Of a stretch of DNA of 53,092 bases, positions 1 through 49,642 are shown piece after piece (the first letter of the stretch is position 1; each line of letters opens with the position of its first letter). The translations under genes and the position numbers were made by a program. The notes under the pieces were generated by a model. That model did not search any database and was not told the DNA's origin. It was given only the letters and a program-made list of their open reading frames with translations. The stretch comes from Bacteroides sp. (GTDB lineage Bacteria; Bacteroidota; Bacteroidia; Bacteroidales; Bacteroidaceae), in the NCBI GenBank assembly GCA_017992695.1, contig JAGOOC010000012.1, positions 7,571-60,662 of the forward strand, read 5' to 3'.

Positions 1-25
1 TTTTTAGTGTCTTATCAGCAATAGG

Positions 26-661
26 CTATTTCTCCAGAGCGATCAGTTGGCGCAGGTAGTTGCCGGTAACCTCGGCCGATTCGCTGTTCTCCTCGATATA
101 TGCCTCTTTCAGTGCCGGATATCGGGTGAGCAGGTGCAACATCTTCTCTTTGCCCACAAAGTCGACCCGGCCGGTAATTCCATCTATCTCATAGTAAACA
201 CGCTTTGACACCTGCCCGGAGGCAGCAATGGCATCGCCCAACGTGCCGCCCAGCGTGACCGACATATTAGTAGAAGAGCCTGCGGCAACGGTGCCCAGGG
301 GTATGGCGCTGAAGTAAATCGATCCGTTTAGTAGCATAGCGGGGGCGTACCATGCGCCAAACTGAAGTTTCTTGTAGCGCAACTTGCGGCAACTTACGTA
401 GAGTGTACTGTCGACCTTAACCAGAAAACAGCGTTTCTTAAGGTATTTGGAGAGTGGTTCGTTGTCGTCGACACTGAGTTTGTAATCGGCTCCTCCGGAC
501 AGCATAATCTGATTCTTGGCACGCTTCTCGACGTTAATGGCAGCTAGTGTATCGCCTCGTTGGGCAGCGAAATCTTTTAGACTCGAATATACAACGACTT
601 GTGCGTTCAAGCAGCATGTTGCTAAACTGAATAGGAATAATGCGATGCCGATCTTCTTCAT
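26..661 (-). CDS. Exported protein of unknown function
   Basis: This 211-residue protein cannot be assigned to a pathway. Residues 1-20 form a signal peptide: a basic MKK start, a hydrophobic run, and a likely cut after LNA. The cysteines at 17-18 do not make a good lipobox, so a soluble periplasmic or surface protein is more likely than a lipoprotein. Residues of about 115-150 are rich in Gly, Ser and Thr, and the last 50 residues are charged and probably helical. It resembles small secreted proteins of unknown function found in Bacteroides (possibly the DUF6563 type, recalled and not checked). Start and stop are both inside the window. It points away from the next gene, and no convincing two-box promoter was seen. 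Confidence 0.75.
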   Translation of the reverse strand: MKKIGIALFLFSLATCCLNAQVVVYSSLKDFAAQRGDTLAAINVEKRAKNQIMLSGGADYKLSVDDNEPLSKYLKKRCFLVKVDSTLYVSCRKLRYKKLQFGAWYAPAMLLNGSIYFSAIPLGTVAAGSSTNMSVTLGGTLGDAIAASGQVSKRVYYEIDGITGRVDFVGKEKMLHLLTRYPALKEAYIEENSESAEVTGNYLRQLIALEK

Positions 662-764
662 AAGTATCTTTTCTTTGCTGGTATCAATGATTTCGGAAAG
701 TTACAGCTTTTTAGTCAATTGAGAGAACTTTTTGCCTAGAAAGTTATAAAAAAACGAGGAAAGT

Positions 765-796
765 GTTGACTTTCGATGCAGAATGTTGTATATTTG
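765..796 (+). promoter_or_regulatory. Promoter of candidate small RNA
   Basis: GTTG at 765-768 lies 20 nt upstream of a perfect TAnnTTTG box (TATATTTG, 789-796). This is the spacing and sequence of the Bacteroidetes primary sigma factor promoter. The expected start is about 800-803, exactly where the structured RNA begins. No open reading frame follows before the terminator at 837-872. Confidence 0.6.
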
Positions 797-799
797 TTC

Positions 800-872
800 G
801 TGTAATCCTGAATTAGTTTCAGGATAAACTACACGTAAAGGAGGAAGCAGGCGCTTTCTCCTTTCTTTTTTT
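800..872 (+). ncRNA. Candidate small RNA with two hairpins
   Basis: Between the promoter at 765-796 and a T-run at 866-872 there is a compact structured unit of about 73 nt and no open reading frame. The 5' hairpin pairs GTGTA (800-804) with TACAC (830-834) and ATCCTGAA (805-812) with TTCAGGAT (818-825); the loop is TTAGT and AAAC bulges on the 3' side. The second hairpin pairs 837-848 with 853-864 (11 of 12 pairs, the twelfth G-T) around a 4-nt loop and is followed by seven T residues, the form of an intrinsic terminator. A leader or riboswitch is unlikely because the next rightward gene starts 367 nt beyond the terminator. The target or role is unknown. Confidence 0.5.
837..872 (+). terminator. 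Intrinsic terminator of candidate small RNA
   Basis: Stem 837-848/853-864 with loop AGGC is followed by C and then seven T residues (866-872). It is oriented rightward, yet no annotated rightward gene lies upstream in the window. It therefore has no purpose unless a short transcript starts at about 800. Confidence 0.65.
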
Positions 873-896
873 GTGCACGGTGCACATCGGGACTGC

Positions 897-998
897 GAAC
901 CGTGCATTCGGCTTCAATGAACCGTGCATTCGAGGTTGAAGAACCGTGCATTCGAGGTTGAAGGACGGTTCATTTGAGGCTGAAGAACGGTTCAAACC
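897..998. repeat. 22-nt tandem repeat array
   Basis: Four full units and a partial fifth follow each other without spacers: 897-918, 919-940, 941-962, 963-984 and 985-998. Units two and three are identical (GAACCGTGCATTCGAGG plus TTGAA). The first differs at its end, and the fourth and fifth carry GGACGGTTCA or GAACGGTTCA in place of GAACCGTGCA. The array begins 24 nt after the small-RNA terminator. A weak leftward reading frame across it has no coding character. Confidence 0.85.
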
Positions 999-1041
999 CA
1001 CGAATAACGGTTTCTCTCGTGTCAAATGGGTATGGGTTAGT

Positions 1042-1086
1042 CCCCGAAAGGGTATACCTTTCGCATCAAGAGCCATACTGTCGGGG
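1042..1086. other. Competing inverted repeats in the gap before the MutS-like gene
   Basis: CGAAAGG (1045-1051) pairs with CCTTTCG (1057-1063) around GTATA. An outer pairing of CCCCGA (1042-1047) with TCGGGG (1081-1086) uses some of the same bases, so the two stems exclude each other. Nothing else with coding or RNA character was found between 999 and 1188. Confidence 0.35.
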
Positions 1087-1188
1087 GCGAAGGGGTGGTA
1101 AGGGGGCTGTAAAGCGCTCGCTCTGTTAATAGTTTATAATTCTGCTTTTGACAAAAACAGACTCCTCATCGACTTCTTGTAAAAATAT

Positions 1189-1196
1189 TATCTTTA
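1189..1196 (+). promoter_or_regulatory. Possible -7 box for the MutS-like gene
   Basis: TATCTTTA differs from TAnnTTTG only in the last base and lies 43 nt before the ATG at 1240. No TTTG-like box is found 19-21 nt upstream, so this is a half-site call only. Confidence 0.35.
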
Positions 1197-1239
1197 CGAC
1201 AAACTAATAGCACCTTTACGCCAAACTAACAGAAACAAG

Positions 1240-3054
1240 ATGAATTCGACACACACGCTTATCCAGACCTATCAAAGCATTATCAATAAAACCGAACAGG
1301 AAGTTACAAAGGTGAAACAACGCATCTATCGCGTGGGGACGTTACGCTTGGTGCTATTCGTTGCAGGCGTAGCAGGTATTATCCATTTTTGGGCGGGCGG
1401 TGCATTATTGCTAATGGGCATTGCAGCCCTTACGTTTCTTCCCTTTCTGGTGTTGATCAAGCTTCACTCGCGCCTATTTAACCGCAAAGCGTATTTAGAA
1501 CAGAAGATAGAGGTCAATCGACAAGAGCTTCGAGCGATGAACCATGACACTTCGGCATTCGATGGCGGCAGCGAGTTTACCAACCCTACGCACCTCTACT
1601 CGTATGATCTGGATGTGTTTGGCGAACGCTCGCTGTTTCAGTACATCAATCGCACATCGACCGAGTTGGGCAAGAAACGACTTGCCTATTGGTTGGGCAA
1701 GCATCTGGAAAATAAAGCGGCTATTGAGAGGCGTCAAGAGGCGGTTAAAGAGTTGGCTCCCGAGCTGCATTTTCGTCAAGAGTTTCGCATCTTGGGATTA
1801 TTATATAAAGGTAAGTTAGCGGACGAAAGCGAGATTAACGCTTGGGCATGCAGCCCCAGCTATTACCGCAACCGGATGTTTCTGCGTATGCTACCGATTG
1901 TGGTCTGTACAATCAATTTGCTTTTCATCGGACTGGCAGTGGCGGGTATCTGCTCATCGACCGTTGCCGGAACCGTCTTTGTCGGTTTCTCACTATCGAG
2001 CTTTCTTTTCTCCAAAGGAATCTCGAAAATTCAAACCCTTTACGGCAAGAAGCTACAGATACTGGGCACGTATGCCGATCTCATTCACCTCATCGAGCAA
2101 CAACCGGTGAAAAGCAAAGCCCTGAAAGAGATCAAAGCATTGGTGGGGGGCGAAAAGCAAATAGCCTCGCAAGCTGTAGCGCGCCTTACCGCACTGATGA
2201 ATGCGCTCGACCAGCGCAACAACGTGATGCTGGCCATGATCTTGAACGGACTGTTCTTTTGGGAGCTGCGACAGATAATGCGCATTGAAGCTTGGAAAGA
2301 GCAGCATGCAAGCGAACTGCCACACTGGCTCGAAGCTATCGGAGAGATGGATGCCTATTGCTCATTGGCTACGTTTGCCTATAATCACCCCGATTATACG
2401 TATCCTCAACCCACATCACACCCCTTCAAACTACAAGCGAAGGAGTTAGGACATCCGCTGATGCCGAGAACCAAATGTGTGCGCAACGGCATTGAAATGG
2501 ATAAGCGCCCGTTTTTCATTATCATCACAGGAGCCAACATGGCAGGTAAAAGCACCTACCTGCGTACCGTTGGTGTGAACTATTTATTGGCTTGCATCGG
2601 TGCACCGATTTGGGGTAAGGAGATGGTGTTCTATCCGACCAAGTTAGTGACCAGCCTACGCACCAGCGATTCGCTCACTGATAATGAGTCGTACTTCTTC
2701 GCCGAATTGAAGCGGTTGAAGCTCATCATCGACAAGCTTAATGCCAAGGAGGAGCTCTTTATCATCCTCGATGAAATTCTGAAAGGAACCAACTCAAAGG
2801 ATAAACAAAAAGGATCGTTTGCACTCATCAAGCAGTTCATGAACCTACAGGCCAACGGCATCATAGCCACTCACGATCTGCTGTTGGGCACATTGATCGA
2901 CTCATTTCCTGAGGAGATTCACAACTACTGCTTCGAGGCAGAGATTACGAATAACGAACTCACCTTTTCCTATCAAATGAAAGAGGGGATAGCGCAGAAC
3001 ATGAACGCCTGCTTCTTAATGAAAAAAATGGGGATTGCCGTTATCAACGACTAA
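1240..3054 (+). CDS. Membrane-anchored MutS-family ATPase
   Basis: This 604-residue protein carries a MutS-type ATPase at its C-terminus. The Walker A loop GANMAGKST is near residue 430, the Walker B stretch FIILDEI followed by LKGTNS is near 506, and a later ATHD motif follows at about 545. It lacks the N-terminal mismatch-recognition domain of MutS. In its place are two predicted membrane helices (about 34-50 and 52-74), and a second hydrophobic pair lies at about 213-258. Residues 260-400 correspond to a lever/core helical region. MutS2 proteins carry a C-terminal Smr nuclease domain, which is absent here. Proteins of this type are widespread in Bacteroidetes and usually labelled 'MutS-related', but a mismatch-repair role should not be assumed. 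It is monocistronic. Confidence 0.85.
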   Translation: MNSTHTLIQTYQSIINKTEQEVTKVKQRIYRVGTLRLVLFVAGVAGIIHFWAGGALLLMGIAALTFLPFLVLIKLHSRLFNRKAYLEQKIEVNRQELRAMNHDTSAFDGGSEFTNPTHLYSYDLDVFGERSLFQYINRTSTELGKKRLAYWLGKHLENKAAIERRQEAVKELAPELHFRQEFRILGLLYKGKLADESEINAWACSPSYYRNRMFLRMLPIVVCTINLLFIGLAVAGICSSTVAGTVFVGFSLSSFLFSKGISKIQTLYGKKLQILGTYADLIHLIEQQPVKSKALKEIKALVGGEKQIASQAVARLTALMNALDQRNNVMLAMILNGLFFWELRQIMRIEAWKEQHASELPHWLEAIGEMDAYCSLATFAYNHPDYTYPQPTSHPFKLQAKELGHPLMPRTKCVRNGIEMDKRPFFIIITGANMAGKSTYLRTVGVNYLLACIGAPIWGKEMVFYPTKLVTSLRTSDSLTDNESYFFAELKRLKLIIDKLNAKEELFIILDEILKGTNSKDKQKGSFALIKQFMNLQANGIIATHDLLLGTLIDSFPEEIHNYCFEAEITNNELTFSYQMKEGIAQNMNACFLMKKMGIAVIND

Positions 3055-5895: not shown

Positions 5896-6501
5896 TTATT
5901 TAGAATACAATTCAACGATCAAATGCTCTTTAATGTTCTCTGGAATATCTGTTCTTTCAGGAATGTGCAACAATTTGCCCACCTTAGAAGCCTCGTCCCA
6001 CTCCATCCATGCATATTTACTGTGATTGAAACCTGCAAGAGAGTTAGTAATAGCTTCCAAAGATTTAGATCTTTCACGAACACCAATCAATTGACCAGGC
6101 TTAACTGCAAAAGAAGGAATGTTAACTACCTTACCATCTACTGTGATGTGTCGGTGACTAACCAACTGACGAGCTGCAGCACGTGTAGGAGCAATACCCA
6201 AACGGAATACAACGTTGTCAAGGCGAGCTTCTAGCAACTGAAGAAGTACTTCACCGGTAATACCTTTAGCGGTTGCTGCCTTCTCAAACAAGTTGCGGAA
6301 TTGTTTCTCTAATACTCCATAGGTATATTTAGCTTTCTGCTTTTCGCGCAGCTGAATACCATATTCTGAAGTTTTTCTTTTTCTTGAATTACCGTGCTGT
6401 CCGGGAGGATAGTTTTTCTTCGACAAAACTTTATCAGCTCCAAAAATACCTTCACCGAATTTACGGGCGATTCTTGATTTTGGTCCAGTATATCTAGCCA
6501 T
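5896..6501 (-). CDS. rpsD: 30S ribosomal protein S4
   Basis: S4 is an early 16S rRNA-binding protein, and in many bacteria it represses its own operon. At 201 residues it has the usual length. The S4 RNA-binding domain covers about 93-155 and includes [12 protein letters not shown] and the [12 protein letters not shown] strand. The N-terminus lacks the four cysteines of zinc-binding S4, so this is the zinc-free form. A 119-nt gap to rpsK is the largest inside the alpha section and could hold an S4 control site, although no clear fold is seen there. Confidence 0.98.
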
Positions 6502-6620
6502 TTCTTTTTAAAATATTTAATTGTTTATTCATGAACTCAATTTGTTGCAGCCGCGATTACAGAGAAGAAATTATTGCAATCCCAAAACAAAATCAAGTTT
6601 CATTTAATTAAAGGTAAATC

Positions 6621-48928: not shown

Positions 48929-49058
48929 AAAGCAAACACTTTTGTTCGCCCAAAGTTCTTATTTTAGGGAGAGAAGGTGCCTTGTCACTACGCAAGCGAA
49001 GTAAGCAACGTTTTGTTTTAACGGTAGCATGAAGGGTGTTTCGTGCTTAGATTTTTAC

Positions 49059-49150
49059 CTCCCCACCTGTGTGGGGAGAGATGCTCACCTAAGTGGGGAG
49101 AGGTGCTCACGCGGGTGGGGAGATCTGCTCACCAAGGTGGGGAAGCAAAT
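49059..49150. repeat. 22-nt tandem repeat after the GNAT gene
   Basis: Units at 49067-49088, 49089-49110, 49111-49132 and a partial one at 49133-49150 share GTGGGGAG and TGCTCAC. The left end also forms a perfect 8-bp hairpin (CTCCCCAC 49059-49066, GTGGGGAG 49071-49078). The array abuts the stop codon of the acetyltransferase gene, so it forms the 3' part of that transcript. The sequence is unrelated to the array at 897-998, but the period is the same. Confidence 0.85.
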
Positions 49151-49642
49151 TTATAAGGTTAATTGCCAATCTCCCACGTCAAGTAATCGTCCGAACTTAC
49201 GCCCCACTTCGCTATAGTGAGCCACCTTCTTGAATCCTAGCTGCTCGTGCAGCCTGACACTTGCCTCGTTGGGGTAAGAGATGCAGGCGATGGCTACGTG
49301 AAAGGAGTGTTCCCTGAGCCGATTGAGCAGTGCCTGCATCAATGCCCGCCCGATACCTCGCCCTACACAGTCGGAGCGCAGGTAGACGGTAGTTTCTACC
49401 GTATCATGGTAAGCAGCACGAGCTTTCCAGGTGTGCGCATAGCAATAACCCAGCACCTCTTTATCGGAAGCGTAAACCAAATAAGGGAAATGGGCAGAAA
49501 TGGTAAGAATACGCCTTCGCATCTCCTCCTCTGTCACAGGTTCGGTCTCGAATGTGACAATGGTATCCGTGATGTAATCATTATAGATACGCTGAATGTC
49601 GGAAACATCTTGTTCTGTTACCTCTCTGATACATTCGTTCAT
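49151..49642 (-). CDS. GNAT family N-acetyltransferase
   Basis: The 163-residue protein is like phosphinothricin-type acetyltransferases. The N-terminal IREVTEQDVSDIQRIYNDYI and FETEPVTEEEMRRRI blocks are typical. VYLRSDCVGRGIGRALM (about 87-102) carries the acetyl-CoA pyrophosphate loop, and a C-terminal GFKKVAHYSEVGRKFGRLLD segment follows. The acceptor is unknown; family members act on amino-acid analogues such as methionine sulfoximine. It has a strong promoter of its own. Confidence 0.88.
   Translation of the reverse strand: MNECIREVTEQDVSDIQRIYNDYITDTIVTFETEPVTEEEMRRRILTISAHFPYLVYASDKEVLGYCYAHTWKARAAYHDTVETTVYLRSDCVGRGIGRALMQALLNRLREHSFHVAIACISYPNEASVRLHEQLGFKKVAHYSEVGRKFGRLLDVGDWQLTL

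Follow-up and report, generated by a model that had tools for sequence, protein, structure and literature searches.

A multicopy and apparently undescribed family of predicted small RNAs in Bacteroides, carried in a composite repeated element with a 22-bp array

Near the left end of the 53,092-nucleotide stretch of Bacteroides DNA analysed here (the window), a gap of 578 nt separates a leftward gene for a DUF6563 protein (26-661) from a rightward gene (1240-3054) that encodes MutS domains III and V, and within this gap sits a compact unit without an evident gene of its own. A first-pass annotation, made from the letters alone, had read this unit as a two-box promoter, a 5′ hairpin with a TTAGT loop, and a terminator with seven T residues, all without a reading frame. 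Each of these parts is present on direct reading, and no plus-strand open reading frame of 20 or more amino acids lies within the unit. What that annotation took for a single self-contained unit of about 108 nt is, however, one of several copies, and the conserved unit extends beyond position 872, to about 1161, over a 22-bp array and a right-end block that had been overlooked. The features are as follows.

765..796, plus strand: two-box promoter of the sigma-ABfr type, GTTGAC ... TATATTTG, by consensus scan and direct reading.
800..872, plus strand: predicted small RNA of about 73 nt, by folding and covariance model, with a predicted start.
799..835, plus strand: 5′ hairpin with the loop TTAGT, by folding; found in the window copy and a small subgroup.
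837..872, plus strand: intrinsic terminator, a 12-pair stem (837-864) with a 4-nt loop, followed by seven T (866-872).
873..1030, plus strand: array of about seven 22-bp units with the core ACCGTGCA / ACGGTT; Tandem Repeats Finder reports 897-994, and the outer units were added by eye.
1125..1161, plus strand: right-end block GTTAATAGTTTATAATTCTGCTTTTGACAAAAACAGA (family form GTTAATAATNNATAAANCTGCTCTTGACAARAA), by alignment of copies, shuffles and pattern search.

In the window copy the promoter boxes are GTTG (765-768) and TATATTTG (789-796), separated by a 20-nt spacer, and the start of the RNA is placed about 4-6 nt past the -7 box. The predicted RNA has a folding energy of -32.9 kcal/mol, while shuffled versions average -16.5 (z -5.7), and none of 200 shuffles equals it. 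The promoter ranks best of the five found in a scan of positions 1-3000 (10 of 12 consensus positions) and the terminator is the longest of three (12 pairs), but shuffles of the same 3000 nt yield a mean of 3.7 promoter-like and 3.4 terminator-like sites, and the counts alone are therefore not above chance. What lifts the small-RNA unit above a chance arrangement is that its promoter, 5′ segment and terminator are found together again at other places in the genome and in the genus. The three features by which intrinsic small RNAs are recognised, a promoter, no open reading frame and an intrinsic terminator, can all be read in its sequence, and the next rightward open reading frame, that of the MutS-domain gene, begins 368 nt past the T run. 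Paralogues in which the promoter is conserved and the terminator covaries give good support to the first-pass view of an intrinsic small-RNA unit rather than a leader.

The Rfam search which that annotation had proposed gave no Rfam 15 match at thresholds: the window unit and 14 paralogue loci produced no score above any gathering threshold, and a search of 700-1240 at loose E-values returned five look-alikes, all far under the thresholds. Literature searches found no publication describing the family, which thus appears to be an undescribed small-RNA family, multicopy in Bacteroides. Elsewhere in the window, the minus strand at 6548-6581 carries an S4-Bacteroidia ribosomal protein leader (Rfam RF03139), just before the open reading frame at 5896-6501.

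A BLAST search with 760-880 found five places in the same genome at E<=1e-7, the query included, and also matched other genomes of the genus. We then used a covariance model, R1, of 14 aligned copies with the terminator as its sole structure. Such a model, built from Bacteroides copies, had been suggested as a check, and it recovers seven credible copies in the genome of the window (E<=6.5e-6; four weaker matches, up to E 0.5, were left out). Across 158 Bacteroides genomes it matches 40 at E<=1e-3 and 30 at E<=1e-6, with up to 27 matches in a genome, counts which may be low since 31 candidates per genome were scored under strict filters. The 118 genomes that have no match at E<=1e-3 under these filters make a generally essential role unlikely. 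Carriers include B. xylanisolvens XB1A (G179, NC_021017.1) and a B. acidifaciens contig (G009). The B. xylanisolvens genome has two solid copies; its third match, L060 (E 6.4e-5), and likewise L062, are treated as chance terminators because they have neither promoter nor array. In an order-wide sample of 295 genomes, five matched at E<=1e-4, two of them Bacteroides; the three others (L140-L142) also have no promoter and no array and were set aside as chance terminators, and nothing credible outside the genus was found among these 295. Because chance matches reach E 1.1e-5, the 10 of the 40 genus genomes whose best E is above 1e-6 are uncertain. The copies within the genome of the window are about 66% alike, hardly closer to one another than to copies in other genomes (about 64%, both as pairwise identities), so these copies are old here. 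The promoter is mostly TTGACTTT ... ATGTNGTATNTTTG in the family, as against GTTGAC ... TATATTTG in the window copy.

The first-pass annotation had made the conservation of both stems a test of its reading, and the two stems fared differently. On a MAFFT alignment with 13 distinct rows, 94.9% of the cells of the terminator stem are paired, and both partners have changed in nine of its 12 pairs. Five measures of this pairing were compared with 500 shuffles: for four of them no shuffle reaches the observed value, and for the fifth, the number of pair types, 92 shuffles do; sliding the partner strand abolishes the signal. A larger alignment, fitted to the model and therefore biased towards the structure, has paired changes at 12 of 12 pairs; its rows include L060, L062 and two partial antisense matches. 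RNAalifold without an imposed structure returns the terminator stem only. Throughout the family, paired changes have preserved the terminator stem. The 5′ stem, on the other hand, is lost in most relatives: on the MAFFT alignment only 58.9% of the cells of the window copy's 5′ hairpin are paired, and 355 of 500 shuffles are as high. When the first 40 nt of 44 copies are folded, the median is -2.7 kcal/mol, 12 of the 44 reach -5 or lower, and the window copy is the extreme at -16.1; four others (L045, L069, L048 and L044) have a TCCTGA..TTCRGGA hairpin in common with it, at -8.4 to -9.7 kcal/mol. From these energies, the 5′ segment of the family is mostly weakly folded and the window copy belongs to a folded subgroup. 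The 5′ hairpin does not characterise the family; most copies have a conserved, weakly folded 5′ segment, and a single-stranded 5′ stretch followed by a terminator describes the family consensus but not the window copy. The idea that the TTAGT loop is a pairing seed stands in part, because the loop falls in a well conserved stretch of the family (UAG-UUC), while the segment around it is weakly folded in most copies.

Downstream of the terminator a regular array begins. Over 44 flanks, mean identity there is 0.471 at a lag of 22 and 0.395 at a lag of 44, with other downstream lags at 0.22-0.30, and upstream it is 0.243 at lag 22. (From 49 matches, removal of L005 and L009, which repeat one place, and of two partial antisense matches left 45, of which 44 have downstream sequence; L060 and L062 were retained.) Of the 52 lags compared, 22 stands alone as the best in 39 of the 44 flanks; the exceptions are L023, L034 (tied with 44), L044 (44), L060 and L062. 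As a control, lag-22 identity is 0.285 downstream of 32 copies of FopS-like small RNAs. A scan of whole loci found 38 lag-22 arrays in 46 family loci (150 kb), several of which are one place fetched twice, against two in 90 kb of control loci and four in another 199 kb, two of the four being one place. Within the window, lag-22 stretches comprise 842-1040, 49017-49184 and an A/T-rich region around 27.4 kb, which means that arrays of this kind occur in the absence of this RNA as well. The array at 49064-49143 has a different 22-bp unit (CACCTAGGTGGGGAGAGATGCT) and no R1 match nearby. Another intergenic repeat, with units near 23 bp (AGTACGTATTTAACACAGCGTTA), was seen at two intergenic places of the same genome, 40259-40312 of the window and 7791-7894 of L090. 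At six loci of one genome, G073 (L158, L164, L170, L176, L180 and L184), the period of the array is 21 and not 22 bp.

Beyond the array lies the right-end block. First seen as GTTAATAATNNATAAANCTGCTCTTGACAA in an alignment of 23 copies, it is found in all 43 copies examined, each time above that copy's own 20 shuffles and its own upstream side, and 20 of the 43 scored played no part in defining it. Within the block, TAA, TAA, C and TTGACA are invariant in the 43 copies. The distance from the end of the RNA model to the block is 187-191 in seven copies, 200-201 in four, 208-211 in 19 and 230-233 in six, with single values from 158 to 335. The spacing thus moves mostly in steps of about 21-22 and sometimes about 11, which would fit, though it does not prove, gain and loss of units or half-units; a 22-bp ladder test on the block offsets gave 21 and 22 as the best periods, with vector lengths of 0.68 and 0.66. 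As a pattern with up to three mismatches the block occurs at 68 places in six of ten genomes, and the reversed control at none. Six of these places are in the genome of the window, every one adjoining an R1 copy, and 26 are in G073. Thirty loci were fetched by the block alone, as a subset of the 68 places with some previously seen, and 28 have the promoter 292-363 nt upstream; the best periodicity in these 28 is 22 (20 loci), 21 (seven) or 44 (one). Two loci in two genomes, L169 and L172, have the block with no promoter or array upstream and are possibly decayed elements. Judged by its sequence, the window copy of the RNA gene, like every other well-supported copy, forms the left part of a composite repeated element of about 400 bases, which lies here at roughly 765-1161. 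The TTTG expected past the right block is weakly enriched (44-74% per base), and a weak outward promoter just after the block is possible; the genes downstream of the element run in both directions.

For 39 of 43 copies of the element the gene upstream has the same orientation, a count in which orthologous loci are counted separately and short open reading frames leave a few calls uncertain; the window copy is among the four exceptions. Most of the ten upstream genes that were scanned have no relation to one another, though an esterase occurs twice; they include a GH123 protein, a TonB barrel, M20 and M3 peptidases, a BNR/rhamnosidase protein, a CarbopepD_reg_2 protein, an SNF2 protein and an alanyl-tRNA-synthetase-like protein. 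The site after the esterase gene holds the element in several species, and the copies there are 88% alike from one species to another. Among 23 esterase loci taken from further genomes (the query covered 25 genomes, 22 of them picked for having no R1 match), 22 are without the element and one, in G077 (L191), holds it reversed. Three empty sites (L188, L189 and L190) have an esterase 86-89% identical; a homologue of the convergent gene on the far side is absent from L189 and L191 but present in L188 and L190, the two loci for which orthology is therefore firmest. The flanks of occupied and empty sites are too diverged for a target-site duplication to be read.

In the 20 copies measured, all with a same-strand upstream gene, the promoter begins 5-84 nt past the upstream stop. 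This closeness would suit a cis-acting 3′-end module, whose hairpin terminates the preceding gene while promoter and array merely insulate the neighbours, as would the plain terminator-like hairpin, seen by eye, that follows the same esterase gene in L190, where the element is missing. Such a module would leave the conserved promoter and 5′ segment unexplained, and it does not fit the window copy, which has a leftward gene as its left neighbour and so follows no same-strand gene; we regard it as distinctly unlikely.

A more serious rival is that the element is a dispersed repeat of the BOX or MITE kind without host function, in which promoter, hairpin and terminator are structural and the RNA is a by-product. 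Pneumococcal BOX elements are described as composites of a left part, an array and a right part with a variable number of units (PMC3049150), and that layout recurs here; the common same-strand upstream gene and an esterase site that is occupied, empty or reversed depending on the species also agree with it. So do unit boundaries common to several copies: the copies in G017 have one unit from about 50 nt before the RNA through the right block, and L014 and L016 remain nearly identical to the end of the array but differ before the block is reached, a pattern suggestive of gene conversion. A parasitic sequence whose RNA does nothing for the host would likewise be compatible with dispersal inside a repeat. 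Against these readings, terminator changes are paired and promoter boxes kept in copies that are only about 66% alike within one genome, and the esterase-locus copies have stayed closely alike among species; in copies this old, terminators with compensating changes and promoters that have been retained argue against a useless RNA, though they do not amount to proof of a function. No terminal inverted repeats were seen by eye, and CTTGAC stands at both ends in direct orientation in most copies. Phage sequences gave no match; a first plasmid query gave none and a second gave 28 records at E about 0.9 from unrelated genera; two patterns searched in viral contigs found nothing, so that no credible carrier emerged among phages, plasmids or viral contigs. 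On balance we consider a repeat without function unlikely, yet it deserves to be taken seriously. What the sequence comparisons do establish is the family itself, its covarying terminator, the array, the right block, and presence or absence at one site.

The initial reading was that the window unit belongs to FopS, which is described as a set of multicopy paralogous small RNAs in B. thetaiotaomicron with 12-15 copies per genome (PMC11697453). By this view the RNA would repress the mRNAs of susC-like transporters. The layout of the family consensus is indeed the same (a canonical promoter, an open 5′ segment and a terminator), the RNAs are multicopy in the same genus, and the window family has the canonical sigma-ABfr promoter by which FopS is recognised. 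The 5′ segment reaches z above 3 against FopS in three of 16 copies tested and falls below 0 in another three (60 shuffles), with the window copy at 2.3, and exceeds 3 against the GibS segment in one of 16. We located GibS by synteny, between the pab genes and the glgB operon, in G179, in G021 and in the genome of the window (L090); GDE_N proved the wrong marker for this locus, which was marked by the branching-enzyme family. A 23-nt pattern for the GibS seed, built on the GibS locus and general background and not on published sequences, then exposed a different seed family: it occurs, GibS included, at 14 places each in G179 and G021 and nine in the genome of the window, some with up to three mismatches, and has no control matches. 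The eight FopS-like places besides GibS in the latter genome, at loci L113, L120, L127, L134 and L090, include six exact ones, and L134 has two such places within 3 kb. The copies other than GibS are taken to be FopS from the promoter, seed, terminator and copy number given in the description of PMC11697453. GibS and the 13 further FopS-like copies of B. xylanisolvens have CATAGTATTAGATTTAAGGTTAA-like seeds, which the window family does not, and the FopS-like copies have no 22-bp periodicity downstream. Since that same genome has 13 further places of the seed family but only two solid copies of the window family, we dropped FopS membership. That the RNA belongs to FopS or GibS proper now seems very improbable; by sequence the family appears separate from both, perhaps distantly related.

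We favour, at a probability of roughly 0.55, a trans-acting, FopS-like small-RNA family carried by a BOX-like dispersed repeat. We infer that the left module is transcribed from its sigma-ABfr-type promoter into a noncoding RNA of about 70-75 nt, made of a conserved A/U-rich 5′ segment with the intrinsic terminator directly after it. The middle module would be a few 22-bp DNA repeats, and the right module the near-invariant block with TTAA..TAA..TTGACA. By analogy with the open 5′ seeds of GibS and FopS, the 5′ segment UAAUC-U-AA-UAG-UUC would pair in trans with mRNAs, probably near their start codons, perhaps assisted by an RRM-type (RbpB-like) protein; the genome of the window encodes two RRM_1 domains. 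Because its seed is folded into a hairpin, pairing by the window copy would start at the UUAGU loop or need an opening of the stem. Many copies would raise the dosage, as is described for the multicopy FopS small RNAs. The array and right block would act, if at all, as DNA, by binding a protein or as an outward promoter, and they may alternatively be remains of the unit's spread; they show that the RNA gene itself spread, or was homogenised, within a repeat unit. A bolder reading, which we hold to be rather doubtful, takes the small-RNA gene, a phased 22-bp protein-binding array and the near-invariant TTAA..TAA..TTGACA block as one genus-wide device. In it, a protein sitting on array and block would govern the RNA gene between them and the promoter, or would spread it, which would make a self-dispersing small-RNA locus, unlike FopS and other multicopy small RNAs.

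If the favoured reading of a trans-acting family is right, it would add another multicopy small-RNA family to Bacteroides, a genus whose regulatory RNAs have only begun to be charted. It would also show, in a tangible example, how a small-RNA gene can be multiplied and maintained inside a dispersed repeat. From the periodic array and the nearly unchanging right block one would further predict a specific DNA-binding or recombining protein.

Among the closest known systems, FopS is, like the window family, multicopy in Bacteroides and combines a sigma-ABfr promoter, a short RNA, a 5′ segment that is open (in the window family by its consensus) and an intrinsic terminator. The 5′ sequence of the window family differs, with no clear homology, and the presumed FopS copies, assigned by description, do not share its downstream periodicity. 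GibS, too, is a Bacteroides small RNA with an open 5′ seed segment and a 3′ terminator, and both it and FopS are reported to act through 5′ seeds at start codons (PMC7366714, PMC11697453). Unlike the window RNA, GibS is reported as about 145 nt long, with a PM2 promoter and a place between the pab and glycogen genes (PMC7366714), and it has another seed; its locus is present in the same genome. The six-member RbpB-bound family BTnc020/054/075/172/213/266, as PMC11697453 describes it, likewise consists of multicopy Bacteroides small RNAs, but by that description its members lie beside transposases and invertases, whereas none of the ten upstream neighbours that were scanned belongs to these classes; the two families may yet be one. 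A likeness in architecture comes from an unrelated host, Streptococcus pneumoniae, whose BOX elements consist of constant left and right modules that flank a variable tandem array and are over-represented between convergent genes, as described in PMC3049150; the comparison is with that described layout and not with sequence, and it is a likeness of layout, not homology. The left module of the window element is a promoter-terminator RNA gene, a component that does not figure in the BOX description drawn on here.
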